Assembly (NCBI GenBank): GCA_003153375.1 | Contig: PLYM01000261.1 | Coordinates: 4,832-59,825 of the forward strand | Origin: Planctomycetaceae bacterium | GTDB taxonomy: Bacteria; Planctomycetota; Planctomycetia; Pirellulales; PALSA-1355 | Length of the DNA: 54,994 nt | Direction of reading: 5' to 3' | Shown: in pieces, positions 20,412-50,396 of the stretch | How positions within the stretch are numbered: the first letter of the stretch is position 1 | How the letters are laid out: each line of letters begins with the position of its first letter | Notes under the pieces: model-generated | Databases searched by the model: none | Told to the model about the DNA's origin: nothing | What the model saw: only the letters and a program-made list of their open reading frames with translations | Made by a program: the position numbers and the translations under genes

Positions 20412-21407
20412 TCAGACGGGCTGACCGGTCAATGCGGCGCGGACGTTCTCCAGTTGGCCGGCCGAGCCGAGCTTCTGGTTCTTGTGCGCGATGTAGTCGG
20501 CGTAGGCGGCCATGAACGGCTTGCCCGGCGTGCGGGGATCGAAATCCTCGGGCTTGTCGCGAAACGTCTCGCGATAGACGGCACACCACACCAGGCGTCC
20601 ATCGGTATCGATGTTTACCTTGGTCACGCCCAGTCGGGCGGCCGGCAGATACTGGTCTTCGGGCACGCCGCTGGCCGAACCGAGCTTGCCACCCGACTTG
20701 TTGATGCGATCGACCCATTCCTTCGGAACGCTGCTCGATCCGTGCATCACCAACGGAAAGCCGGGGAGGCGATGTTGAATCTCGGTGATGCGGTCGAAGT
20801 GGAGCCCCTGGCTGCCGGTGAACTTGTAGGCGCCATGCGAGGTGCCAATGGCCACGGCCAACGAATCGCACTGCGAGCGTTCGACGAATTCGACGGCCTG
20901 GTCGGGATCAGTCAGGCAGGCGTTGGCGGCATCGACGGCGATGTCCTCTTCGACGCCGCCCAGCATGCCCAACTCCGCTTCGACCGAGATGCCCTTATCG
21001 TGAGCGCGCTCGGCCACGCGGCGCGTGATCTCGATGTTCTTGTCAAACGGGTCGTGCGAGGCGTCGATCATGACCGACGAATAGAACCCGCTGTCGATGC
21101 AGTCATAGGCGGCCTCTTCGGTGCCGTGATCCAAATGGACGGCAAAGATGGCCTGCGGAAAAATCTCTTCCGCGGCGCGGATCATGGCTTCCAGGAATCG
21201 CTTGTCGGTATAGCCCCGCGCCCCGCGCGAAAGCTGGATGATGAACGGCGCGCTGCGGCGGGCGTCGATCGGGTCGTCGTTCGAGTTTTTTTGACCCAGG
21301 TTGCCGCGAAACAGACCCACGGTTTGTTCCAGATTATTGATGTTGTAGGCGCCCACTGCGTACTTGCCGTAGGCCTGCTGGAACAACTCTTTGGTAGTCA
21401 CGATCAT
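20412..21407 (-). CDS. fba: Class II fructose-1,6-bisphosphate aldolase
   Basis: Zinc-dependent aldolase of glycolysis and gluconeogenesis, interconverting fructose 1,6-bisphosphate with DHAP and glyceraldehyde 3-phosphate. The 331-residue product begins MIVTTKELFQQAYGKYAVGAYNINN and has the zinc/catalytic segments FAVHLDHGTEE, GISVEAELGMLGG, AIGTSHGAYKF, VMHGSSSVP and KVNIDTDGRLVW. The ATG at 21407 has GGGGAG about 9 bases upstream. It resembles the longer class II subtype also found in autotrophs. Divergent from kdsD. Confidence 0.95.
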   Translation of the reverse strand: MIVTTKELFQQAYGKYAVGAYNINNLEQTVGLFRGNLGQKNSNDDPIDARRSAPFIIQLSRGARGYTDKRFLEAMIRAAEEIFPQAIFAVHLDHGTEEAAYDCIDSGFYSSVMIDASHDPFDKNIEITRRVAERAHDKGISVEAELGMLGGVEEDIAVDAANACLTDPDQAVEFVERSQCDSLAVAIGTSHGAYKFTGSQGLHFDRITEIQHRLPGFPLVMHGSSSVPKEWVDRINKSGGKLGSASGVPEDQYLPAARLGVTKVNIDTDGRLVWCAVYRETFRDKPEDFDPRTPGKPFMAAYADYIAHKNQKLGSAGQLENVRAALTGQPV

Positions 21408-21639
21408 CGTTTGAATCTCCCCGTTTTGCCGCTGCGCCGGCGCGGTTGACCTTTGCTGGCAACATCCCTGCGTGAAAAGCACGTCCCCGCCTGTGGGGGC
21501 ATTCTAATCGATTGTGCGTAACCCGACCAGGAGCGGCGGTTTAGGGCCGGCGTCGTTCTACATTGCCCCTATCCGCAGCGGCGGCTACAATCCCCCGCCT
21601 CATTTTCTTGGCCCGCCACGTCTTCGAGGACGATTTCCG

Positions 21640-22758
21640 ATGAGCATGCCCGCGCGTGCTAGCACGCCGTCGCTGACCGCGCACGAGCAGCTTCGTTATG
21701 CGCGCGAGATCATCGCGCTCGAAGAGCACGCACTGGCCAGCGTTGCCGGCCGGCTCGATGGCGAGTTCTGCCGCGCGGTCGACATCCTGTTCGCTTGCCG
21801 TGGCAGCGCCATCACCAGCGGCATCGGCAAGGCCGGGCTGATTGCGCAGAAGGTGGCCGCCACGTTGGCCTCGACCGGCACGCGCAGCCACTACCTGCAC
21901 CCTGGCGAGGCCGTGCACGGCGACCTGGGCCGCGTGCGACATGACGACGTCGTGGTCATTCTTTCGCAAAGCGGCGAAACCGAGGAAGTGGTGCGGCTGC
22001 TGCCGTCGCTGGCCGACTTTGGCGTGCGTATGATCGCGATCACGGCGCGGCGCTCGAGCGCCTTGGGACGCTCGGCCGACGTGACGATCGAGCTGGGGCC
22101 GTTGCAAGAAGCCTGCTCGTTGGGACTCGCCCCGAGCACCAGCACGACGGCGATGTTGGCCGTGGGCGACGCGCTGGCGCTGGTGACCAGCCGGATGCGC
22201 GATTTTTCGCGCGAGGATTTTGCCCGCTTTCATCCCGGCGGAAACCTGGGGCGGCAATTGAGCAAGGTGGACGACTTCATGCGGCCGCTGGCCGATTGTC
22301 GCGTGGCGCTCGAATCGCAGAACGTGCGCCAGGTGTTCGTCGAGCGCAGCCGCGCCGGGCGACGGACTGGAGCGATGATGCTGACCGACGCCCGCGGGCG
22401 GCTCTCGGGGCTTTTTACCGACAGCGATCTGGCCCGGCTGTTCGAAGGTCATCGCGACGCGGCGCTCGACCGGCCGATTCGCGAGGTGATGACGGCGCGG
22501 CCGCGGACGGTTCCGCAAGGCTCGATGATGGTTGACGCGGTGGCTATCATGGCGGAACGGAAAATCAGCGAGCTACCGGTAATCGATTCGGTCGGTCGGC
22601 CTCAGGGTCTGCTCGACATCACGGACGTCGTGGGGCTGTTTCCCGAAGCACCGCCGACGGCTGCTGGTGACGGCGCCGCGGTCGTGCCGATGTATCCGGC
22701 CAGCTCGCCAGCCACGAAGTCTTCCTTGCCGGGAGCCCCGCCGCGGGATCGCGCATGA
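21640..22758 (+). CDS. kdsD: Arabinose-5-phosphate isomerase (KpsF/GutQ family)
   Basis: Converts ribulose 5-phosphate to arabinose 5-phosphate, the first step to Kdo. In the 372-residue product a SIS domain covers about residues 45-180 (SGIGKAGLIAQKVAATLASTGT, LSQSGETEEVVRLLP), followed by two CBS domains (about 225-355, ending KISELPVIDSVGRPQGLLDITDVV). The C-terminal 20 or so residues are a low-complexity tail. The ATG at 21640 has CGAGGA about 9 bases upstream. Its stop overlaps the kdsC start (ATGA), so the two are coupled. Confidence 0.93.
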   Translation: MSMPARASTPSLTAHEQLRYAREIIALEEHALASVAGRLDGEFCRAVDILFACRGSAITSGIGKAGLIAQKVAATLASTGTRSHYLHPGEAVHGDLGRVRHDDVVVILSQSGETEEVVRLLPSLADFGVRMIAITARRSSALGRSADVTIELGPLQEACSLGLAPSTSTTAMLAVGDALALVTSRMRDFSREDFARFHPGGNLGRQLSKVDDFMRPLADCRVALESQNVRQVFVERSRAGRRTGAMMLTDARGRLSGLFTDSDLARLFEGHRDAALDRPIREVMTARPRTVPQGSMMVDAVAIMAERKISELPVIDSVGRPQGLLDITDVVGLFPEAPPTAAGDGAAVVPMYPASSPATKSSLPGAPPRDRA

Positions 22759-23276
22759 AACTCGAACAGCGCTGCCAAGAAATCGAGCTGGTTCTGGCCG
22801 ACGTCGACGGCGTCCTGACCGGCGGACACATCATCTTCAACAACCAGGGAATCGAAACCAAGCAGTTTCACATTCGCGACGGCATGGGCATCCGGCTCTG
22901 GCAGCGGGCGGGCTACACGTTTGGGCTAATCACCGGTCGCAGCTCGCACATTGTGAAAATTCGTGCCGCTGAATTGAACGTCGAGATCGTGCGGCAGACG
23001 GCCGAAGATAAATTACCGGTCGCGCAGGAGATCCTGGCCAGCCTGGGGCTCGAACCGCGCCAGGCTTGTTACATCGGCGACGACCTGCCCGATCTGCCCG
23101 TGATGCGGGCCGTGGGTTTGGGCGTGGCGGTGGGCGACGCTTGTCCGGAGGTGCGGCAGGCCGCCCACTATGTGACCGAGCTGGCCGGTGGCCACGGCGC
23201 CGTGCGCGAGACCATCGAGGTCATTCTCAAGGCGCAGCGCCGCTGGAACGACCTCATTCAAAAATACACCAGTTGA
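22755..23276 (+). CDS. kdsC: Kdo-8-phosphate phosphatase
   Basis: HAD-family phosphatase that makes Kdo from Kdo-8-P. The 173-residue product has motif I LADVDGVLTGG (nucleophile Asp16 and Asp18), motif II region ITGRSS, and the C-terminal GDDLPDLPVMRAVGLGVAVGDA. The length and lack of a large cap match the tetrameric KdsC type. It overlaps kdsD by four bases and precedes the OstA/LptC-like gene by eight bases, the order seen in the E. coli kdsD-kdsC-lptC locus. Confidence 0.93.
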   Translation: MKLEQRCQEIELVLADVDGVLTGGHIIFNNQGIETKQFHIRDGMGIRLWQRAGYTFGLITGRSSHIVKIRAAELNVEIVRQTAEDKLPVAQEILASLGLEPRQACYIGDDLPDLPVMRAVGLGVAVGDACPEVRQAAHYVTELAGGHGAVRETIEVILKAQRRWNDLIQKYTS

Positions 23277-23284
23277 GCCCCGCG

Positions 23285-26200
23285 ATGTCTCAAGCCGTAG
23301 CAGTGCCCCGCACGGTCGCCGACATGCGAGTCCGATTCTCGGGCATGGCGCGCGCGTGGCAGGTCGTGGCCAGCTTCTGCGTGGTGTTCGCGGCCTACTG
23401 GATTTACTGGCTGATTGCCGTACCACTCATCGAACCGAACATCGATGCCGACGTTGTCACGCATCCCACCGAACAGCAGATCGAAGACGCTCGCAACACC
23501 GTCAACAACCGTCAGCAGAATGTGGCTCAGTTTTTTGCCGAGGGTGCCTGGGAACTCGATAAGCCGTCGGTGTGGCAAAACGATCAGACGCGGCTGTTAT
23601 TCAAGACGCTGACCCCTCGACCCGACGGCACGGTCGAGCTGCGGCCCTGCACCGTGCTGCTGTTTCCCAAGGGCGCGCCGACCGAAGGTCCGTCGGTTCC
23701 CCAGCCGATCATCTTGCGGGCTCCCGCCGGGGCCAACGTGCGGTTCGATCAGCCCATCGAGTTCAAGAACGTGGATCTGACCAAGCGCAAACTGCTGGGC
23801 GGCAATTTGATTGGCCAGATCACGATCTATCGCAAGCCTCGCGAGGGCGCCGACGACGAGTTGGAAATCTTGACGCGCGACGTCGAAATGCAAGGCGATC
23901 GGATCTTCACGCCCCACCCGGTGCAGTTTCGCCTGGGCCGCAATCACGGCAGTGGGCGCGACATGGAAATTCTGATGAACGCGGCCGAGGGCGCGCCGAC
24001 CGGCGGTTTCAAGACCGGCACGATTCGCTCGCTGGAATTGAAGCGCGACGTGCACATGCAGCTCCATACGTCGGGCGGTCCGCTGGCTGGCGGCGCGGCG
24101 GGCGGTCGACGTGGCGAGCCCGAACTGCCGATGGAAATCACTTGCCAGGGTTCGTTCCTATACGAGATCGCCCGCAATGCGGCGTCTTTCCACGACGCCG
24201 TGAACGTCTTTCGTCCCAACCCGATCGGCGAGAGCGATCAATTGAATTGCGAAGTGCTCACGACTTTTTTCGAGTCCGGCGGCGCTCCACCGCCGGAAGC
24301 CCCCAATGCTGCCGCACCCGCGTCGCCGGTCCAGCCGTCCGGCTTTCGCATGCGGAGAATCGAAGCCCGTGGCGATCCGGTCGTGGTCCGCTCGCCGAGC
24401 CGGGGCATCTACGTGCATTGCCGAGGCATCGACTATTCTCCGGGCGTCGACGGCGCGATGGGCAGCCTGGTGGCCCTCGGACCGGGCGTGTTGCAAGGCA
24501 CCCTGCCCAAGGAGAACCCAGGAAGTTACGACGCCAAATGGTCGCGAGAGTTCCGCTTCGAGCCTGCTGAAGGCAATCAGCATCGCGCGTCGATGATCGG
24601 CAGCGCGGTGGTTCGTTTTCCGCAGCTGGGCACGATTCAAGCCGATGAGATCTTTGCCTGGCTGACGCAAAAACTACCCCCGCCCGGCGCTCTGCCCCCC
24701 CCTGCCCCGCCGCCGGCCGCCGAGGGTGCGCCCCCGGTGCCTCAGGCGCCGGGAGACGCGGCGCCCAGCGGCTGGCAACTCGAGCGGCTTTTGGCACGCG
24801 TGCACCAGGATCCGAAGGCCAAAACCCAGGCCCGCGTGATCGTCGATTCGCCGCAGTTGCACGCCGTGACGGGACAACTCGAAGCCTGGGTCGACCGGCC
24901 GCCGGCGACTGCCGCGCCTGTGGGAGCCACGCCGCCTGCAGGCACTGGTCCCGCCTCGGCTGTGGCGCAGCCTGCCGCGCAACAACCGGCGGTTGGCGGC
25001 AAGAAGCGTTCTCAGCAGAACGCAACCCAGAAATTCGATCTGAGCGGCGGGAGAATTCGCTTGCAACTTGTGCCCGAGGGGGAGCAAATGGCCCTCTCGA
25101 TGGTCACGGTAGAAGATCGGGCGCGGCTGCACGAGATATCGCCAGCCCGCGCGGGCGAAAAGCCGCTGGTCGTCGAAGGCGATCGGATTCACGTCGCACA
25201 GGCCAACACGCCGGCCACCCGGGTGACGGTCAACGGCCGTCCCGGTCGACTCGAAGCTGGCGGCATGACCTTGCGTGGCGCCGCGATTGAAATGGACAAG
25301 GCCGCGAATCGGTTGTGGATCGACGGCAAGGGCACCATGACGATGCCGATCGATCAAGATCTCGATGGCAAAGCAATCGCGAGTCCGACCTTGATGGAAA
25401 TTGCCTGGCAAGGTCGGATGGTCTTTCAAGGCAACTCCGCAGTCTTCGAACGCAATGTGGTCGTGAGCTCGGCGTCGCAGGTTTTGCGAACCGAAAAGAT
25501 GGAGGTCGTGCTCGATCGGCCTATCGACTTTGCCAATCCTAACGCAAATCGAGCCGCCGGCGGCAAAGCCGAGGACAAGCCGCAGATTGCCTTCGTGCGC
25601 TGCTTTGGCCATGCGCTGCTCACGAGTCGGCAAGTCGACGAGCGCGGCAAGCAAACGTCCGTCGACGAACTGAGCGTGTTCGAGTTGACGCTGAATAAAG
25701 CCACGGGCGACGTCACTGGGCTAGGCCCGGGTTCGCTCACGCACGTCGGCTTGGGCTCGGATGCCTCGCCGCGGGGCGCCGCCGCCGCCGGCGCGCCCGA
25801 TCGCCAACGCCCGCCGAAGGCCGATGGCGCCGACGACGAGCTGCGCTATCTCAACGTGCAATTTCGTAGTTTCCTCGATGGCAATTTGAATCAGCGCGTG
25901 AGTCGCTTTGGCGAGCCGACGAAAGCAGTCTATGGCCCAGTGAGTGATTGGAAGGCCAAACTCAATCCGGACGAGCCGGCCAGTCTCGGCCCCCAGGGCC
26001 TGGTGCTCGACTCGCAGGAGTTGGTGGTGCGCGAAATGCCATCGCGCGAGCGACGCGACCGCGGCTGGGTGGAGTTGACGGCCAAGGGCAACGTGGTCGG
26101 CGAGGGAGCACAGTTTACCGCGCGCGGCGCAATCCTGACCTACAGCGAGGAGAAAGATCAACTCGTGCTGCACGGCGATGGGTTCAGCCCGGCCGAGTTC

Positions 26201-26368
26201 TTTCAAGACAATCCGGCCGACGGTACGCGCCGAGCTTCAAAGGCCGACGTATTGACCTATTGGTTCACCTTGCAGCGCGTGGAAGTCTCAGGCGTGCAGT
26301 CGTTCGATATGCAGGTGCCCACCAAAACCAAGCCGAGCACCAAGCCTAAGAAGAAGTTGCCGTTCTAG
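23285..26368 (+). CDS. Large membrane-anchored OstA/LptC-like protein
   Basis: A 1027-residue protein with a single N-terminal membrane helix at about residues 24-46 (VVASFCVVFAAYWIYWLIAV) and a long, presumably periplasmic, beta-rich part. Segments such as DVEMQGDRIFTPHPVQFRLGR, KGTMTMPIDQDLDG and VFERNVVV look like the repeated strands of the LptA/LptC/OstA fold. Two Pro/Ala-rich linkers interrupt it near residues 340-360 and 465-590. E. coli LptC is 191 residues and LptA 185, so this could combine several OstA modules into one bridge. The family assignment leans on context (directly after kdsC) as well as on the fold-like repeats. It ends the Kdo group. Confidence 0.6.
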   Translation: MSQAVAVPRTVADMRVRFSGMARAWQVVASFCVVFAAYWIYWLIAVPLIEPNIDADVVTHPTEQQIEDARNTVNNRQQNVAQFFAEGAWELDKPSVWQNDQTRLLFKTLTPRPDGTVELRPCTVLLFPKGAPTEGPSVPQPIILRAPAGANVRFDQPIEFKNVDLTKRKLLGGNLIGQITIYRKPREGADDELEILTRDVEMQGDRIFTPHPVQFRLGRNHGSGRDMEILMNAAEGAPTGGFKTGTIRSLELKRDVHMQLHTSGGPLAGGAAGGRRGEPELPMEITCQGSFLYEIARNAASFHDAVNVFRPNPIGESDQLNCEVLTTFFESGGAPPPEAPNAAAPASPVQPSGFRMRRIEARGDPVVVRSPSRGIYVHCRGIDYSPGVDGAMGSLVALGPGVLQGTLPKENPGSYDAKWSREFRFEPAEGNQHRASMIGSAVVRFPQLGTIQADEIFAWLTQKLPPPGALPPPAPPPAAEGAPPVPQAPGDAAPSGWQLERLLARVHQDPKAKTQARVIVDSPQLHAVTGQLEAWVDRPPATAAPVGATPPAGTGPASAVAQPAAQQPAVGGKKRSQQNATQKFDLSGGRIRLQLVPEGEQMALSMVTVEDRARLHEISPARAGEKPLVVEGDRIHVAQANTPATRVTVNGRPGRLEAGGMTLRGAAIEMDKAANRLWIDGKGTMTMPIDQDLDGKAIASPTLMEIAWQGRMVFQGNSAVFERNVVVSSASQVLRTEKMEVVLDRPIDFANPNANRAAGGKAEDKPQIAFVRCFGHALLTSRQVDERGKQTSVDELSVFELTLNKATGDVTGLGPGSLTHVGLGSDASPRGAAAAGAPDRQRPPKADGADDELRYLNVQFRSFLDGNLNQRVSRFGEPTKAVYGPVSDWKAKLNPDEPASLGPQGLVLDSQELVVREMPSRERRDRGWVELTAKGNVVGEGAQFTARGAILTYSEEKDQLVLHGDGFSPAEFFQDNPADGTRRASKADVLTYWFTLQRVEVSGVQSFDMQVPTKTKPSTKPKKKLPF

Positions 26369-27138: not shown

Positions 27139-28038
27139 ATGACGAATCGCGCAACCACGGGGTCGCAGGAAGCGCTCGGTCAGATGCTTCCGGGACAGGC
27201 CGCCGCGGCTCGAGCCGTGATGGGCGTGATGACCCACGGCCGCCGCGATTCTCAGCTGCCGCAGTGGGCGCGTTCGCTGGAAATCGCCGCCGCGCCACTC
27301 GCTGAGCTCAACCTGCGTCTGGCAATTCTCACCGCCGGCGATGTGAACGATACCCCTTGGCCCACGATGAGTGTTCCGCTGGAAACCTTGCCGTCGCAGG
27401 GCGACCTGGGCTTCTCACAGAGTATGAACCGGCTGATGGCCCGCGCCTTCGCCAACTCGCAGACAACGTGGTTTCTGTGCGTCGACGCGAGCGGGGTGTT
27501 TCATCGCGAGACGCTGGTGAGGCTGGTCGCGGCCGCCCGCGCGCATCCGCAGTCGCTGATCGAAGCCCGCCAGTTTCCGCGAGAGCACACGAAGCAATAT
27601 GACCCGGTGACCGGCGAGACGCCCTGGGCCTGCGGTGCTTGCCTGCTGATTCCTCGCACGGTGTACGAGACGATCGGCGGATTCGATCCCGTGTTCGTCG
27701 AGCAGTTGGCCGATGTCGATTTTTCCTGGCGAGCGCGGCGCGCCGGTTTCACGGTGCGTGTGTGCGGTGGTGCCTTGTTCGGCCATGGGGCCGCGCAAGA
27801 AGAGCCGGCCGACCTGGCTGGCCAGCGGCAGTTGTTGCTGTCGGCGCGCTACCTGGCGTTCAAGTGGGGACATGAGCCGACGTGGCGCATGGCCGAGGAA
27901 CGGTTGCTAGCCGGCGGCCATTTTGTCGATCGCGAGGCGCTGCCGACGCTGCCCAACCTAGGACCTTGGGAAGATCGCGACCGGGCAGGCATCGCCGATT
28001 TTTCTCAGTTCTTCTGGTTCGCCCCGACGCGGTGGTAG
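27139..28038 (+). CDS. GT2-like glycosyltransferase
   Basis: A 299-residue protein of GT-A type. Recognisable parts are the donor-binding region TTWFLCVDASGVFHRETLVRLV, the acceptor-side PWACGACLLIPRTVYETIGGFDPVF and the GT2-typical ADVDFSWRARRAGFTVRVCGGALFGHG. No membrane segment is seen. The ATG at 27139 is taken over the upstream frame because the upstream part overlaps the promoter region. The sugar and acceptor are unknown; the neighbours suggest a surface polysaccharide. Confidence 0.75.
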   Translation: MTNRATTGSQEALGQMLPGQAAAARAVMGVMTHGRRDSQLPQWARSLEIAAAPLAELNLRLAILTAGDVNDTPWPTMSVPLETLPSQGDLGFSQSMNRLMARAFANSQTTWFLCVDASGVFHRETLVRLVAAARAHPQSLIEARQFPREHTKQYDPVTGETPWACGACLLIPRTVYETIGGFDPVFVEQLADVDFSWRARRAGFTVRVCGGALFGHGAAQEEPADLAGQRQLLLSARYLAFKWGHEPTWRMAEERLLAGGHFVDREALPTLPNLGPWEDRDRAGIADFSQFFWFAPTRW

Positions 28039-28058
28039 AGAGCACACGGAGGACGCGC

Positions 28059-29258
28059 ATGGTGACCAGCGAATTAGCCCCGCCGATCGAAGCGACCGAG
28101 GCCGTCGACGACTGGGGTTCGAACTCCACGCTATCGGTCATCATTCGCTTTCATCAAGGCGGCAACACGCAGTTTCTGGACGAGGCCCTGTTCTCGCTCG
28201 CGCTGCAAGATTGGGATGAACTCGAATTGCTGTTGATGGTGCAAAACGCGACCAGCGAACTGGAGGCCGAAGTCGAGGAGTTGGCTCACCGCCAGCCGTG
28301 GCGCGTGCCTCCTCGGGTGCGCGTCTTGAGCGTGACCATGCCGGCTGGGGCCGATGGTCGCTCGCGGCTTTTGAATCGCGGCATTGCCACCGCCCGCGGG
28401 CGATACCTGGCCTACTTGGACTACGACGATCTGGTCTATCCGCATGGCTATCGCACCTTGATCTCTCGGCTGCGCTCGCATGGCTACACCTGGGCGGTGG
28501 GCGGCTGCCTGAAAGCGCGCTCGCTGTCGGCTCCCGGTCACTGGTATGTGGTGGAAAAAACCCGGCTCTCCAAGGGCCGTTCGGCCATCAAGAATCTCTG
28601 CGCGGGCAATTCGATCGCCATTCACTCCTATGTCATCGATCGAGCGCGGCTCGGCGATTTCGACATCGGTTTTGACGAGGAGTTGACCCGGGGCGAAGAC
28701 TACGACTTTCTGCTGCGGCTGGCCACGCGACATCGGCCAGACTTGGGCGTGATCGAGGACGTGGTCTGCGAATATCGCATGCGGATGGACGGTTCGAACA
28801 CGGTGCTCGATTGCCAGGCCACGGCCTCGCACGAGGCGCAGCGCGAATGGTCCCATTGCCTGGCGATCGTCGACCGCCGCCGGCATCTGTTGCGCTGGTC
28901 GGTCACGATCGCCGAATTGGCTGCGTTGGATAGTGCCTGCGACGCCCTCGACGCGCAGCTTCAACAACACCGCGCCGTGATTGCGGAACTTTCGGCCACG
29001 ACCACCCAACATTCGGACCTGATCATCGCGCAACAGGCCCACATCGAAAAACTCGAAGCCACGATCGCCCACGAGCAGGCCGTGGTTGCCAGGCAGGCCG
29101 CCACGATCGAGGGGTATGAGCGGGTTAGGCTCACCAGCAGCTATCAGGCCTTTGAACAGGTTTGCGGAATGCTGAACTATGTGCCGCGGCCGGTGCGTCG
29201 CGCGGTTTATTACCTGCTGCAGGTGAGTTTGCGTGTTTTCAAGGCACCCCTGCGATGA
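28059..29258 (+). CDS. GT2 glycosyltransferase with coiled-coil tail
   Basis: A 399-residue protein. The GT-A domain starts LSVIIRFHQGGNTQFLDEALFSLALQDWDELELL and has the metal-binding YLDYDDLVYPHGYR and the catalytic-site region ELTRGEDYDFLLRLA. Residues from about 300 form a heptad-like helix (LDAQLQQHRAVIAELSATTTQ, IEKLEATIAHEQAVVARQAATIE) followed by a hydrophobic, basic end that could sit on the membrane. The ATG at 28059 has CGGAGGA about 6 bases upstream. It lies 20 bases after the first glycosyltransferase. Confidence 0.85.
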   Translation: MVTSELAPPIEATEAVDDWGSNSTLSVIIRFHQGGNTQFLDEALFSLALQDWDELELLLMVQNATSELEAEVEELAHRQPWRVPPRVRVLSVTMPAGADGRSRLLNRGIATARGRYLAYLDYDDLVYPHGYRTLISRLRSHGYTWAVGGCLKARSLSAPGHWYVVEKTRLSKGRSAIKNLCAGNSIAIHSYVIDRARLGDFDIGFDEELTRGEDYDFLLRLATRHRPDLGVIEDVVCEYRMRMDGSNTVLDCQATASHEAQREWSHCLAIVDRRRHLLRWSVTIAELAALDSACDALDAQLQQHRAVIAELSATTTQHSDLIIAQQAHIEKLEATIAHEQAVVARQAATIEGYERVRLTSSYQAFEQVCGMLNYVPRPVRRAVYYLLQVSLRVFKAPLR

Positions 29259-29291
29259 TGACGGAAGCTTGGGATCAGTTCATTTAGGTCG

Positions 29292-30149
29292 ATGCCCCTT
29301 TTCGGGAATTGCCCGGACATGCCACGTGCATTGAATACTTACTGGTGCGATATGCCAAACTTCGGCGATCGCCTGACGCGCGCATTGCTCGGATACTTCG
29401 GCATCGAAACGCGGCTCGCAACGCCCTGGAACGCACAACTCGTGGGAGTTGGCAGCATCTTAGAGCACATGGATGACCAATTCGCGGGCGTGGTCCTTGG
29501 CACCGGATTCATGTGGGCGCCGAGCCGCCGTCGTTTTTCGCGAGCTAACCTGCTGGCTTTGCGCGGGGCTTTAACGCAAGCGAGGGTTGAAGGCTCGCGG
29601 CCCGAGGTGTTGGGGGATCCGGGCCTGTTGGCCCCTTACTTGCTCGCGGGCGCGCAAGAATCGCGTTATCGCCTGGGTCTCATACCCCATTACGTCGAGC
29701 GGCAGACGCCCGACGTATTGCGGATCGCGCGGCAGTATCCCGACGACGTGCTGTTGATCGACGTCGAACGTCGTCCGGCCGACGTGATCGCCGATGTTGC
29801 TCGCTGCGACGCGATTGTCTCCTCGTCACTGCACGGTTTGATTGTGGCCGATGCGCTGGGCATTCCCAACCGCTGGATCCATGCCGACGCGGTGCTGGGC
29901 GGGGGCTTCAAGTTTCGCGACTATTATTCGGCGTTCGGCGAACAGCGTTCGCCCATTCCGCTCGATGGCCGGCAAACGCTGCGCACCCTGCTGGTGGCTG
30001 TCGAGGCGCCGCCGGCCGCGGTCGGGGTCGTGCAGTCGCGGCTCTATGACCTGTTCGCCGATTTGGAGCGACATCTCGTGAATGATCCGCAACTCGGCGA
30101 TCCGCAGCTCGGCTCACTCGCCGCCGAAACCACCGGGGCGATTCATTAG
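29292..30149 (+). CDS. Polysaccharide pyruvyl transferase family protein
   Basis: Family members move pyruvate from PEP onto sugars of exopolysaccharides or cell-wall polymers. The 285-residue product has NFGDRLTRALLGYFG near the N-terminus, the central LGDPGLLAPYLL and the conserved SSSLHGLIVADALGIPNRW. The start is ATG 29292; an internal ATG at 29319 (MPRALNTYW) is a credible alternative closer to the family start. The last codons contain a 15-base direct repeat encoding DPQLG twice. The 3' end overlaps the LarA-like gene on the other strand by 36 bases. Confidence 0.82.
   Translation: MPLFGNCPDMPRALNTYWCDMPNFGDRLTRALLGYFGIETRLATPWNAQLVGVGSILEHMDDQFAGVVLGTGFMWAPSRRRFSRANLLALRGALTQARVEGSRPEVLGDPGLLAPYLLAGAQESRYRLGLIPHYVERQTPDVLRIARQYPDDVLLIDVERRPADVIADVARCDAIVSSSLHGLIVADALGIPNRWIHADAVLGGGFKFRDYYSAFGEQRSPIPLDGRQTLRTLLVAVEAPPAAVGVVQSRLYDLFADLERHLVNDPQLGDPQLGSLAAETTGAIH
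30084..30113 (+). repeat. Two-copy 15-base tandem repeat at a gene end
   Basis: GATCCGCAACTCGGC (30084-30098) and GATCCGCAGCTCGGC (30099-30113) differ at one base and encode DPQLG twice near the C-terminus of the pyruvyl transferase. The second copy abuts the stop codon of the LarA-like gene on the other strand (30114-30116). Confidence 0.8.
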
Positions 30150-31424
30150 CTTGTCGCGAGTCGCCCACAGTCCGGCGGAAGGCGTCGGAATGAAATAGAA
30201 GCGTTCGCCGTCGTCCGTCGCGTTCCAGCCCTGCTTGAGCTCGTCGGGTCGATAACGGGCCAGCGTTTCCGCCAGGTCGGCGTATCCGAAGTTCACCCCT
30301 TCGACCTCGTCGCGCGTCAGAAAGCCGGGCGCGTAAGTGATCTTGAAGCGCCCCTCGGACGAACCGTGGATCAGGTGCGCGGTGGCGTGGCCCAGATCCT
30401 GCATGTCGGCGTTGGTGCGATAACCGGCCGTAACCCGAGGCGTGCCGCAATAGCCGTACTTGCGAATGAAGAGGTCGACGTCGGGTTGCTCGCCAAATCG
30501 TTTAAGTCCTGGCGCGATGATCAGCAGCTCGCCACCATCGGCGATGGCCATTCGCGTGCGATAAATCGCCTTGTTGGCCACCCAGGTGCTCACGAATTCG
30601 TCGGCTTGCATCACGCAGACGATTTTTCGCACCGGCTCTTCGAACAGCGTGATGTTCTGCTCGCGCGACTGCCGGGCCGCTTGCAGGTAGGTTTCCAGGT
30701 CGTCGCCCACGAAGACGCCAGTGTGTACCAACTCGTCGCGCTCGTTTCGCGCCAGCACGACTTGCACGTACAGGTCGGGCAATCGACCGAGAAACTGGTC
30801 TTCGGCCTGATTGAAACAGGCTCGCGTGGGCGTGATCAGCGTGCCCAGGTTGTTTTCGATGCCACAGGTGGCAGCCAACATGTGCGAGGCGCAAATCGTT
30901 TCCTTGCCGCCCAGACCGATCCAATAGTTCTTGTTGTGATTCGCAAAGCCCAGCACCTCGTGCGGCACGACATGGCCCACGTTAATGATCAAATCCCAAG
31001 GCTCTTCCATCAGCATGCGATTCAGATAGAGCGGGATCGGCCAATCGGCCACGCCACCACAAGCTTTGGAAACGGCCGCTCCCGAGAGTTCTCCCACGTG
31101 GACGCAGCCGTCGCGCCAGTCGTGCGCGTGAATGCCCTCGTTGGGAAGGGCCCCGAACATGCGCCGGTTTTCGGCCGGCGTGTGGGCCACGTGCTGCCCG
31201 AGCGTGGGGATCACGTGTACGTCGGCCTCGGCCGAAAGCTCGTCATAGAGCATTTCGGTCAGGCGGCCGACTCCCGAGTGCGCGCGGGTGATGTCCGGCG
31301 GCAACAACAGCACACGCTTCGGCCGCGCGCAAACTCGGCGACGCGCTTCGGCCACGGTCTGCCGCATCAGTTCGGCCAGGCGTGGCCAGAGAATCTCGGG
31401 GGCCGACTCGGAAATCCAGGGCAT
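30114..31424 (-). CDS. LarA-like nickel-pincer hydroxyacid racemase family protein
   Basis: LarA enzymes racemise lactate or other 2-hydroxyacids with a nickel-pincer nucleotide bound to a lysine. The 436-residue product shows the N-terminal LLLPPDITRAHSGVGRLT (the DxTR motif), LIINVGHVVPHEVLGFANHNKNYWIGLGG with conserved His and Lys residues, and a C-terminal half with LIIAPGLKRFGEQPDVDLFIRKYGY. The start ATG 31424 begins MPWISESAPEILWPRL. No larB, larC or larE genes are nearby, so the cofactor supply is not explained. It lies 31 bases downstream of pepA and is probably in its operon. The substrate is unknown. Confidence 0.8.
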   Translation of the reverse strand: MPWISESAPEILWPRLAELMRQTVAEARRRVCARPKRVLLLPPDITRAHSGVGRLTEMLYDELSAEADVHVIPTLGQHVAHTPAENRRMFGALPNEGIHAHDWRDGCVHVGELSGAAVSKACGGVADWPIPLYLNRMLMEEPWDLIINVGHVVPHEVLGFANHNKNYWIGLGGKETICASHMLAATCGIENNLGTLITPTRACFNQAEDQFLGRLPDLYVQVVLARNERDELVHTGVFVGDDLETYLQAARQSREQNITLFEEPVRKIVCVMQADEFVSTWVANKAIYRTRMAIADGGELLIIAPGLKRFGEQPDVDLFIRKYGYCGTPRVTAGYRTNADMQDLGHATAHLIHGSSEGRFKITYAPGFLTRDEVEGVNFGYADLAETLARYRPDELKQGWNATDDGERFYFIPTPSAGLWATRDKLMNRPGGFGGE

Positions 31425-31455
31425 GAGATACCTATTTCTTACGCCCGAGGGCGCG

Positions 31456-32934
31456 CTACGGCTGCCAATCGCGGGCCAATTGCACCAGCGTGCGGACAAA
31501 CTGCCCACTAGCGCCGGCGTCGCTCCAGGGTTTGGGCTTGTCGCGAAACGCCGGGCCGGCAATGTCGATGTGGGCCCAGGGTGTGTTGCCGACGAACTGC
31601 TCCAGCAACTTCGCGGCCGTGATGGCGCCGCCCCAGCGGCCGTCGCCCACGTTCTTCATGTCGGCCACTTCGCTCTTGATCAACTCGTCGTAAATCTCCG
31701 GATACATCGGCAACTGCCAGATGGGCTCGCCTTGTCGCCGGGCGGCAGCCGTGACCGCATCGCACCAGGGCTGATTGTTCGTCATCACACCGGCCACTTC
31801 GGTGCCCAATGCCACGACGCAGGCGCCGGTGAGCGTGGCCAGATCGACGATCTTGGCCACCTTCCACTCGACGACCAGCGAGAGCAGGTCGGCCAGCACC
31901 AGCCGGCCCTCGGCATCGGTGTTGTGTACTTCGATGGTCTTGCCATTGCGGGCCCGCAACACGTCGCCCAACTTCATCGCGGCAGGGCCCGTCATGTTTT
32001 CCACCAGCCCGGCAATGCCGAGCACGTTGATCGGCAGCTTCAACTGGGCGATGGCTTGCATGGCGCCGACCATGGTCGACGCTCCGGCTTTGTCGCACTT
32101 CATCGTGAACATGCCCTCGGGCGTTTTCAGCGACAATCCGCCCGAGTCGAACGTCACGCCCTTGCCGACGATCGCCAGCGTCGGCGCGCCCTTCGCGGCA
32201 CCGTGGTAACGCAATACGACGATTCGCGGCGGCCGGCTCGATCCCTTGGCCACGGCCAATAGCGCGCCGCAGCGCTCGGCTTCGAGCCGCGGTTGATCCC
32301 AGATGTCGACTTCGATGCCATTGCGGCCGGCCATCTCGGCAGCCCGCTCGGCTAAGGTCTCGGGATAGATCTCGTCCGCGGGCTCGTTCACCAGTCGGCG
32401 CGTGAGGTTCATGGCGTCGCCCAGGATGCGCCCCTTGGCGATCGCCTCCCCCTTGACGATCGTCTCGTTGTCGCCGCTGCTCCAAGCCAGCGTGCCGAAG
32501 GGGTGGCGGCTCTTTTCGGCCCGATAGAGATCCTGTCCTTCACAGCCGGTGATCGCGCCGCACACGCCGTTTTCGGTCCACTCGGCGGGCCAGCCCTCGT
32601 CGAGAAACAGGGCCACGGCTGCGCGCGGTTTGCCGGCCAGATGTCGCGCGGCAGCCGAAGCAGTGCGAAACGCCGATCCCGCGTCGAATTTGTCACGCTT
32701 CCCCAGTCCCACGAGCAGCACTTGCCGGGCTCGGCCAACGCTCACCAGCAGCGGCGCCATTTCGTAACAGCGCCCCGTGAATTCCTTGCGCTCCTGAAGA
32801 TTGCGAATCGCGCCGCCAAGCGCGCCGTCGACCGCCGCGGCGGCTTCGCCCAGAGGCCCGTCCTCGAATACGCCGACGGCAATCGCATCGGCCTCGGTCT
32901 CAGTGACGCGCGAATGGATGTGATGAATTTGCAC
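31456..32934 (-). CDS. pepA: Leucyl aminopeptidase, family M17
   Basis: Cytosolic two-metal aminopeptidase that recycles peptides; some homologues also bind DNA. In the 492-residue product the metal and active-site residues align with E. coli PepA: Lys258, Asp263, Lys270, Asp281, Asp340, Glu342 and Arg344 (VGKGVTFDSGGLSLK and the signature NTDAEGRL). The N-terminal third is the usual non-catalytic domain. The ATG at 32934 is preceded, about 45 bases upstream, by TAAAAT (complement 32979-32984), a possible -10 box without a clear -35 box. It diverges from the UbiD gene. Confidence 0.95.
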   Translation of the reverse strand: MQIHHIHSRVTETEADAIAVGVFEDGPLGEAAAAVDGALGGAIRNLQERKEFTGRCYEMAPLLVSVGRARQVLLVGLGKRDKFDAGSAFRTASAAARHLAGKPRAAVALFLDEGWPAEWTENGVCGAITGCEGQDLYRAEKSRHPFGTLAWSSGDNETIVKGEAIAKGRILGDAMNLTRRLVNEPADEIYPETLAERAAEMAGRNGIEVDIWDQPRLEAERCGALLAVAKGSSRPPRIVVLRYHGAAKGAPTLAIVGKGVTFDSGGLSLKTPEGMFTMKCDKAGASTMVGAMQAIAQLKLPINVLGIAGLVENMTGPAAMKLGDVLRARNGKTIEVHNTDAEGRLVLADLLSLVVEWKVAKIVDLATLTGACVVALGTEVAGVMTNNQPWCDAVTAAARRQGEPIWQLPMYPEIYDELIKSEVADMKNVGDGRWGGAITAAKLLEQFVGNTPWAHIDIAGPAFRDKPKPWSDAGASGQFVRTLVQLARDWQP

Positions 32935-47119: not shown

Positions 47120-50100
47120 CTATTCGAGCCCGTAGGCGCCAGCCACGGGCACGGCCATGCCGACCGGGTTGGCCCCGCCCAGGCGGCCTTGCATGAATCG
47201 CGGCGTAATGGCGATCGTCGCGCCCACGTTGCCTTTGCTCGTATCGACGTTGACGTTGAACGTCATCAGGAACGATTCGCCGATGCGCGTCATCGTGAAG
47301 TTCTGGCCGATGTTGCGGGCATTGGCGACGTCGAACGTGGTGCCGAAGGTCGAGATCCACTTCGGGCTCATGCGGTAGCTGTACGACGTGGCGACGACGT
47401 TGCTCTCGATCGGTCCCTCCAGCGAACGGAAGCCCAGGTACAGTGCCCCGCGCGGCGGCCGGTTCAAGAAGGCGCCGACGTTGTAATACTTGGGCGCGTT
47501 CTCGAAGAAATCGAAGTAGCCATCGGAGACCACGGTCGTGCGGTCGCCAACGTGCCAGAGGAAGTTGTAGTCGACCAGACCGATCGGCGTGCCGAAGTTG
47601 TCGCGATTCGCGTCGGGGAAGACCGTGAAGTCGGTGTTGAAGACGATCCAGTCGACGATTCGCTGATTGCCAACCGGGCCGCGCTTGGTTTGCCAACGCT
47701 GACGCAGGCCGAACCGCGCGGCGAACAGGTCGCCGGCGATTTCCGTCGAGGGAGACGCCACCCAGTTGCCTAGCCCGCGGCGCAAGCCATAGAACCGCGG
47801 GTCGTACTGCGCGGGGTACATCGCGGGCGGTCCGCCGAAGTCGGTAAAGGCGTACCAACGTCGATAGGCTTCAATATTGTTGTCATCGATCGCGTCGTAC
47901 AGCGGCAGGTTCGACAGATTGTCGGTCGCCTGGGCATACGATACGTCGGCGTCGAACACCATCTTGTGCGCGATGCCGTTGACGTTGAACAGCGAGCTTT
48001 GAATCGTCGGGTCGACGGTCCACACCGGCATGCTGGCTCGTAGTCCGAAGGCGCCATAGGCCCGATTCTGGTCCGTAAAGTTCAGGTTCTGGTCCCAGTG
48101 GGCCAACTCGCCGACGACATACGGATCGAACTTCACCACGCCCAGCGCGAACGGCGCGTCGAGTTCCTGCCGCGTCGCCAGCCGGCTTCCCGAGCGGGTG
48201 TTGCCCGGCGGGCCTTCCCACGGCAGCGGGGCCCAATTGAGTTGGTCGGTCGGCAGCGTGGGTTGCGTGGCCGATTTGTACTGTGCATAGCCGACGTTGC
48301 TATGCTCGTACCAGGTCAGGCGGTCGCCCAACAGCGGCTGGCCCAGCCAGAAGTGATCGGCCCGCGGCAGCCAGTTGGTTTCGGTGAAGAACGGATCGAG
48401 CCGCGCCGCGCCCAGGACGCTCCACGAGCTGTTGTCGACGTAGCGCTTCAGTTCCAGGTCGGTCGATTGATCCTTCAACTGGTCCCATTCGCGCTCGTAG
48501 TACTGCTCGAGGAAGTTGTTGTCGCTGATGTAGCCCAATTCGCCGGTCAACTGATAGCCCTCGGGCAGCAGCGTACGGTGTTGGGCCAGGATGCGGCCGC
48601 GGAGGTTCTGCCGCTCGGGACTGAAGGTGTTTTCGGGAATGAAACTGCGGCGCAACAAGCCGAGGTTATCGAGACCGTGGTCGTCGATGCCCCAGAGGTC
48701 GATGAAACCGGTGGTGCCGCCCTGCACATTGAACAGAGTTTGCCGTTGATAGGTGAACGTCGTGCCGGCCGCCGGGCCGCGCGCGCTGAAATAATCGGCG
48801 CTGAGTTCCCACTTGGTGCCCGGGGGCGGCTTGCGAATGCCGAACAACTGATAGGCGTTGATGTTGGTCAGGATGCGCGTGCCGAAGATGCGGTCGCTGG
48901 TCACGCGGACCGAGTCGACGTAGTAGTTCGGCTGCTCAAGATCGGTGGCCATCGTCGGCCAGTAGAAGACCGGGAATTGCTCGACGTAGACGACGTTGTT
49001 GCGGCTGGTCACGGTCTTGTCGTGGTCGATGATCGGCGCACCGCTCGGATCGACCTCCGGCGCGCCGGTGAACATATTGATTCGCGGATGTTGCACGTCC
49101 TCATAGGTCATCGAGTTCGAGCGCAGCTCATAGCCCGGAATGCCCATGCGGCTCGAAGTCAACGAGGCGTTTTGAGCGATGAAGCGGTCGGGGCCGATTT
49201 GCTGCACGACTTCGGCTCGCAGCTTCATCAGGCCCTCGAACTTGGGCACCACGGTGAGGATTTCGGCCCCCAGCACGATGCCGGTCTGGCGGCGGACGTC
49301 GTAATACATCCGCTGGGCATAGATCGTGCGCTCGCCCTGACGGAAGACGACGTTGCCCTCCATGTATATTTCCAGAGGCGCATCCTTGGGCTGCGTCGAC
49401 TCTCCCTCTCCCACCGGCTTCAGCCCGCCTTGGCTCCAGACGACCAGGTTGTCGGTGTCGACGTCGATCGAGCCGAACTGGTCGACGCCGTCGACCACGA
49501 TGTTCACGCCCGACTTGATCAGGGCCACCTGCTCGTTGCTGTTGGGATCCGAAAAAGCATCGGCTTCGGGCCGCACGGCGCTGCGGCCTTGGATGCGAAT
49601 GCGGACGCTGCCCAGCGGCGGAGCGATGGTCGGGGCCGGCGTCTGAATCGGTTCGGCGAATTGGGCTGGTTGCACGTTGGCGGCCGGCGGATTGAACGTG
49701 GCGACCGCATGCTGATAGACCGCGGGCTTGGCCGTCGGCGCCGGCTCGTCCTTCATCGGCCGCACGTCGACTGGCAGCACGGAGTAAAAGCGGCCGAACC
49801 AGGTCTTGTCCTTGAGCGTGGCGCCGCCCGCGGCTTTGCCATTGGCGTCGGACTGTTGATAGTTGATCTGCACGTCGCCTTCGAGATGCGCGATCACCTT
49901 GTGCGGCGGCTCGCCACCGACACCACCCTTTTCGATCCAGATCACGGCGTCGGCACTGCGCGCGTAGGTCAAACCCTGGTTGATGTAGCAGTTGCCGTGC
50001 AGCAGGTAGACGTCGTACACCCCCTCGACCCAATGGCTGCCGCTGTCGGCGGCCACGGTAATGCGATCGGACATGCTGCCGGTGGGCAATTCAATCTGGG

Positions 50101-50161
50101 CTTGCGCGGTGCCGACGAAGCAGAACGTGGCGGCCAGCGTGACGACCTGCACGGCGCGCAT
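47120..50161 (-). CDS. LptD/OstA-like outer membrane protein
   Basis: LptD inserts LPS in the outer membrane. The product, 1013 residues from ATG 50161, has a good signal peptide (MRAVQVVTLAATFCFVGTAQ, cleavage after AQA). The N-terminal periplasmic part includes the OstA-like strand PLEIYMEGNVVFRQGERTIYA followed by RMYYDVRRQTGIVLGAEI. The C-terminal 550 residues look like an outer membrane beta-barrel (alternating aromatic strands, DFFENAPKYYNVGAFL). A TTG at 50263 would add 34 residues but gives a poorer signal. It has its own strong promoter. E. coli LptD is 784 residues; the extra length is in the periplasmic part. Function in this phylum is inferred. Confidence 0.78.
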   Translation of the reverse strand: MRAVQVVTLAATFCFVGTAQAQIELPTGSMSDRITVAADSGSHWVEGVYDVYLLHGNCYINQGLTYARSADAVIWIEKGGVGGEPPHKVIAHLEGDVQINYQQSDANGKAAGGATLKDKTWFGRFYSVLPVDVRPMKDEPAPTAKPAVYQHAVATFNPPAANVQPAQFAEPIQTPAPTIAPPLGSVRIRIQGRSAVRPEADAFSDPNSNEQVALIKSGVNIVVDGVDQFGSIDVDTDNLVVWSQGGLKPVGEGESTQPKDAPLEIYMEGNVVFRQGERTIYAQRMYYDVRRQTGIVLGAEILTVVPKFEGLMKLRAEVVQQIGPDRFIAQNASLTSSRMGIPGYELRSNSMTYEDVQHPRINMFTGAPEVDPSGAPIIDHDKTVTSRNNVVYVEQFPVFYWPTMATDLEQPNYYVDSVRVTSDRIFGTRILTNINAYQLFGIRKPPPGTKWELSADYFSARGPAAGTTFTYQRQTLFNVQGGTTGFIDLWGIDDHGLDNLGLLRRSFIPENTFSPERQNLRGRILAQHRTLLPEGYQLTGELGYISDNNFLEQYYEREWDQLKDQSTDLELKRYVDNSSWSVLGAARLDPFFTETNWLPRADHFWLGQPLLGDRLTWYEHSNVGYAQYKSATQPTLPTDQLNWAPLPWEGPPGNTRSGSRLATRQELDAPFALGVVKFDPYVVGELAHWDQNLNFTDQNRAYGAFGLRASMPVWTVDPTIQSSLFNVNGIAHKMVFDADVSYAQATDNLSNLPLYDAIDDNNIEAYRRWYAFTDFGGPPAMYPAQYDPRFYGLRRGLGNWVASPSTEIAGDLFAARFGLRQRWQTKRGPVGNQRIVDWIVFNTDFTVFPDANRDNFGTPIGLVDYNFLWHVGDRTTVVSDGYFDFFENAPKYYNVGAFLNRPPRGALYLGFRSLEGPIESNVVATSYSYRMSPKWISTFGTTFDVANARNIGQNFTMTRIGESFLMTFNVNVDTSKGNVGATIAITPRFMQGRLGGANPVGMAVPVAGAYGLE

Positions 50162-50396
50162 GCTGCGCGAAAGAAAAATCACGGCGCAACATAAGCTCAG
50201 CGCCGCGCGCGCGGCACGTCGGCCGGCGCGCAGGATTTGCTGCGCGCGCGTTCGAGCGGGCAAGTGATGAGCCGAGCCGGGGTTCAGCAGAGTCGCATTC
50301 CTGATTAGGCATTCGGCGGAGATCCCAGAACAGGACCCGCCGACAACAGCGCAAAACGAAGTGACGAAAGTTTTTAAGGCTCTCGAAGCGGGCGGG

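Follow-up and report, generated by a model that had tools for sequence, protein, structure and literature searches.

The 1027-residue protein encoded directly behind kdsD and kdsC in the planctomycete DNA analyzed here is, with high confidence, an LptC fused to several LptA units and would act as a one-piece LPS bridge. An earlier note, made from the sequence alone, had suggested that one long protein might replace both LptC and LptA as a bridge, and the predicted fold, profile searches, gene order, and conservation support this reading. What emerges is the familiar Lpt system in a new architecture.

Locus and gene order

The window is a 54,994-nt stretch of contig PLYM01000261.1 of Planctomycetaceae bacterium (GCA_003153375.1), with position 1 as its first letter. 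It sits on contig 10 of a genome of 6.7 Mb. The three genes of the locus are the following:

21640..22758, + strand: kdsD, arabinose-5-phosphate isomerase (SIS + CBS); TIGR00393 (kpsF/gutQ family), E 5.3e-76, over the cut-off; Pfam SIS and CBS
22755..23276, + strand: kdsC, Kdo-8-phosphate phosphatase; TIGR01670, E 2.8e-46, over the cut-off
23285..26368, + strand: LptC-(LptA)n fusion of 1027 aa, taken as a one-piece LPS bridge (proposed); AlphaFold2, PDB fold matches, profile search, and conservation

The stop of kdsD and the start of kdsC share the sequence ATGA, an overlap of four bases. The ATG of the bridge gene lies at 23285, eight bases past the kdsC stop, and its 1027 codons end at 26368 on the + strand. 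Coordinates and curated-model scores confirm that kdsD and kdsC are coupled and followed at eight bases by the long ORF, as had been claimed. This ORF does not occur by chance, since matches are found in 114 of the 118 genomes of the order and the homologues are nearly all alike in length—the 60 full-length ones measure, with few exceptions, approximately 960 to 1170 aa.

The order kdsD–kdsC–bridge on one strand is found in 22 of the 24 loci of the order that have enough flanking DNA to be counted; the two exceptions carry kdsD only (L071) or neither gene (L048). At the four loci of the sister order (L130–L133), kdsD directly precedes the bridge gene with no kdsC between them. In other classes, kdsC lies just upstream on the same strand in 10 of the 16 loci examined. 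At one locus (L139:4688-4939), an 84-aa ORF that by eye resembles a HicB-type antitoxin is located between kdsC and the fusion gene. The likeness to the LPS transport locus of Proteobacteria seen earlier is borne out: kdsD–kdsC–bridge follows the Escherichia coli order kdsD–kdsC–lptC–lptA–lptB, with the difference that lptC and lptA are one gene in the planctomycete and lptB lies elsewhere (contig C91). Because it is made beside kdsD and kdsC, the bridge is assigned to a Kdo/LPS export locus.

Predicted fold and domain map

The full-length protein was modeled with AlphaFold2 from a 57-row alignment of homologues at a mean pLDDT of 84 and a pTM of 0.70, the latter giving only moderate confidence in how the domains sit relative to each other. 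The model features a helix at residues 20–49 and a second helix at residues 63–81, followed almost exclusively by strands up to residue 1008. The N-half, residues 82–540, was modeled apart and reached a pLDDT of 88 and a pTM of 0.87. The predicted parts are the following:

23342..23431, + strand: N-terminal membrane helix, residues 20–49, with a conserved VPLIEP at its end; model, hydropathy peak, and Y41/P47 invariant in 57 homologues
23558..24076, + strand: LptC-like β-taco, residues 92–264; fold matches of the N-half model to LptC
24101..24892, + strand: LptA-like region or regions, residues 273–536; fold match to LptA and internal repeat
25034..25753, + strand: middle LptA/LptD_N-like region, residues 584–823; match to the LptD N-terminal domain and internal repeat
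25838..26320, + strand: C-terminal LptA-like β-taco, residues 852–1012, presumed LptD dock; LptA fold match and Pfam LptD_N

In the N-half model, residues 101–261 match LptC (4b54_B) with a Z of 13.3 and an rmsd of 2.4 over 122 aligned residues, and residues 92–264 (11–183 in the numbering of this model) match the LptC of the LptBFGC complex (6mit_C) with a Z of 13.1. Residues 315–523 of the same model match LptA (2r1a_G; Z 13.3, rmsd 3.9). Further along the chain, residues 729–1000 match the N-terminal domain of LptD with a Z of 12.9–13.1, and the best match to LptA is that of the C-terminal unit, in which residues 852–1012 match 2r19_A with a Z of 14.6 and an rmsd of 2.1 over 123 aligned residues. 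Overall, the Lpt matches reach a Z of 13–15, and unrelated folds begin at a Z of approximately 7.7. Long Foldseek alignments of the bridge to whole LptD had an rmsd near 40 and were discarded as evidence.

The protein features a single hydrophobic helix near residues 26–51, as judged by hydropathy, in line with the membrane anchor proposed earlier, and the Pro/Ala-rich linkers noted then correspond to residues 331–354, 463–496, and 537–583, with 43–65% Pro plus Ala. The mention of several OstA-like strands was too modest, as β structure is predicted over nearly the whole periplasmic part. The structure prediction suggested at that time as a check yields Lpt β-taco domains, with the LptC-like one first and the LptA-like ones after it.

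By a rough count, the 54 predicted strands amount to approximately 40 layers and, at 4.8 Å each, to approximately 19 nm. Linkers of approximately 20–50 residues (264–283, 331–354, 463–496, 537–583, and 823–852) may break this stack, and the Pro/Ala-rich ones, if disordered, could interrupt the groove. Judged from the model, it is plausible that a monomer of the bridge could span a periplasm.

Sequence relationship to LptC and LptA

The bridge protein itself stays under every curated cut-off of Pfam and NCBIfam. Pfam LptD_N (PF03968) matches residues 908–966 at E 0.0021 and 18.7 bits, below the cut-off of 20.4, and NCBIfam LptC (TIGR04409) matches residues 28–77 at E 0.28 and 10.7 bits, below the cut-off of 38. 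A single-sequence phmmer search of the bridge against the PDB gave no match. The family profile, searched against all PDB sequences, retrieves LptA in its top eight positions, with a best E of 4.9e-4. When 44 members of the family were scanned singly with Pfam, 32 matched LptD_N with an E of 0.01 or less, the best being 8.3e-10, one matched LptC, and none matched any other family. Within the bridge, residues 273–407 resemble residues 694–822 (hhalign E 7e-11) and residues 283–406 resemble residues 856–971 (E 1e-5), each in a single pairwise comparison. Aligned by hhalign with the Pfam-positive LptC plus LptA fusions of other classes, the window family matches over 691 columns with a probability of 99.8 and an E of 1.2e-28.

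Distribution and size of the fusion

Homologues of the bridge are carried by named relatives from Pirellulales and other Planctomycetota. Ten columns are invariant in an alignment of 57 homologues, and two of these hold Y41 and P47, where the membrane helix ends. A search of the phylum with the family profile gave matches in 41 of 149 genomes; these include full-length matches from a second order of the class as well as partial ones from other classes. Several homologues of these other classes carry clear LptC and LptA domains within one chain; the 660-aa protein L138 exceeds both curated equivalog cut-offs, with 80.9 bits for LptA (cut-off 71.7) and 72.8 bits for LptC (cut-off 38). The fused architecture is widespread in the phylum, beyond the genome of the window.

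The fusions come in sizes of 343 aa (L134), 655–793 aa, and more than 1000 aa, with two fused Lpt units in the 343-residue form and perhaps six in the forms of more than 1000 residues. A tentative reading, which we hold to be somewhat doubtful, is that of a single-molecule LPS bridge of genetically fixed length whose unit number varies by lineage and serves as a ruler for the width of the periplasm. The smallest fusion seen (L134:4933-5961) follows kdsC and features a signal peptide–like start, one LptC-like unit, and one LptA-like unit.

Separate LptA and LptC

An unlikely but not negligible explanation is that the protein is an elongated LptC only and that a free small LptA, too divergent to detect, completes the bridge. 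Genome-wide searches with PF03968 for a separate lptA and with PF06835, at E up to 1, for a separate lptC found neither, which agrees with the earlier remark that the small LptC and LptA are not seen. The sensitivity of these searches is limited, as both models are weak here and miss even the bridge; because PF03968 does so genome-wide, the absence of a separate LptA is weakly tested by it, which leaves this explanation some room. A stronger test uses a profile of the planctomycete LptC–LptA fusions: in nine related genomes and at E up to 1, it retrieves only orthologues of the bridge, and this speaks against a free LptA. The profile of the bridge family likewise retrieves the bridge as its sole match in the genome of the window, and the best LptA match is the bridge's own C-terminal unit.

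Partner genes and cargo

The bridge might, with a low probability, serve another envelope lipid or glycolipid by reuse of the Lpt fold, a reading for which Borrelia is the precedent, since it has Lpt proteins without LPS (PMC10353723). Against this stand the direct coupling of the bridge gene to kdsD and kdsC and the presence of LpxC and WaaA, which occur in one copy each in 19 of 19 relatives and also in the genome of the window. As judged by these two markers, the lipid A and Kdo pathway is present. In addition, Tn-seq has identified lpxABCDKL as essential in Planctopirus limnophila, in a report whose main text does not mention Lpt (PMC10632474). LPS in planctomycetes had been called debated in the earlier note; with these essential genes it is by now largely accepted. 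The notion of an unrelated long all-β periplasmic or surface protein that resembles Lpt by chance is highly improbable, for although its identity to solved LptA and LptC proteins is low (8–17%), the Lpt fold matches stand well above those of unrelated folds, the sequence profile independently puts LptA first in the PDB, and homology to the LptC plus LptA fusions is obtained transitively.

Of the partner genes named in the earlier check, the searches covered lptB, lptF/G, lpxC, and waaA, and these are all present. LptB of the genome exceeds its cut-off of 240 bits with a score of 334.5 and is encoded on contig C91. In this region (L075:9218-14966, G000 contig C91), lptB lies approximately 8 bases 3′ of three large signal peptidase I–like genes of 448–596 aa each, which were called by eye from a VIPTGSMA-type motif. 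All 19 relatives searched have genes of the LptF/G family, mostly two per genome; the genome of the window has two, and its LptB2FG genes are spread over contigs C91, C242, and C187. In most relatives, the second paralogue (G000:C187:65626-66729) is matched by PF03739 in two end pieces only, which suggests a divergent periplasmic middle.

The window itself contains a candidate for the outer membrane partner, which had escaped the earlier note:

47120..50263, − strand: divergent LptD candidate, 1047 aa, with an OstA-like N-terminus and a presumed barrel; conservation and weak Pfam matches

This gene was traced through the weak match of a relative. A PF04453 search of the genome gave no LptD match, with the candidate falling below the cut-off, and its profile retrieved no LptD from the PDB sequences. 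Pfam gives its family weak matches to two models alone, LptD_N at best with 1.3e-4 and LptD at best with 9e-4, and homologues occur in 58 of 58 genomes. LptD has been reported in all planctomycetes then sequenced (PMC3422733). On the basis of Pfam, gene conservation, and this literature, 47120–50263 is taken as a candidate LptD.

Proposed working of the bridge

For the LptC–LptA fusion, the following arrangement is proposed. The N-terminal helix would anchor the protein in the inner membrane at LptB2FG in an LptC-like manner, and the first β-taco would receive LPS from LptF/G. The LptA-like β-tacos that follow would line up into a single covalent groove through the periplasm. The unit at the C-terminus would dock on LptD by way of the N-terminal domain of the latter, with the divergent candidate of the window as this LptD. 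We infer the contacts with LptF/G and LptD, LPS as the cargo, and the spanning by a monomer.

Relation to known systems

Like LptC of Proteobacteria (YrbK, TIGR04409/PF06835), the bridge has a single membrane helix at its N-terminus, an LptC-like β-taco behind it, and a gene placed directly after kdsC. It differs in being approximately five times longer, in running on into LptA-like units, and in staying below the LptC cut-offs. With LptA (YhbN/LptH, TIGR03002/PF03968) it shares the β-tacos, as judged by the matches to LptA crystal structures, and the internal repeats. LptA is a separate, secreted, and self-assembling protein of less than 200 aa, whereas the bridge holds several units in one anchored chain. 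The E. coli bridge is built up from individual LptA molecules, and no gene fixes how many; the separate proteins are stacked there as LptC and then LptA. The order of helix, LptC-like domain, and LptA-like units within the planctomycete chain is therefore the same as this stacking order. A natural one-piece bridge would, in contrast to that of E. coli, have its unit number fixed in the sequence and would be open to deletion tests. Borrelia burgdorferi likewise features a divergent Lpt bridge outside Proteobacteria, and a bridge of monomeric LptA has been regarded as a possibility there, but its LptC, LptA, and LptB are encoded by separate genes of a single locus, and it has no LPS (PMC10353723).

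In a survey that covered 903 genomes, the Lpt system of planctomycetes was rated as "largely reduced" (PMC8871954). Such planctomycetes probably have a complete system with a one-piece bridge. A fused bridge would explain why they seemed to be without LptC and LptA, and it would close the gap between a reduced Lpt system (PMC8871954) on the one side and essential lipid A genes (PMC10632474) together with LptD in every planctomycete examined (PMC3422733) on the other. No description of an LptC–LptA fusion or a one-piece bridge in planctomycetes was found in the open-licence papers searched. NCBIfam models already suffice to name the more obvious relatives LptC or LptA, and the proteins are therefore not invisible to databases; it is the one-piece bridge, and not the proteins as such, that seems undescribed.

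Neighboring genes

The divergent neighbor of kdsD (20412–21482, − strand) recurs close to kdsD in 11 loci of the order; its relatives at L037 and L040 resemble, by eye, class II fructose-bisphosphate aldolase. On the 3′ side of the bridge gene, 27882–30149 (+ strand) holds glycosyltransferase family 2 and polysaccharide pyruvyl transferase genes. The gene at 30114–31562 (− strand) encodes a putative nickel-pincer-nucleotide (LarA-like) hexonate epimerase with an NF052594 score over the cut-off.
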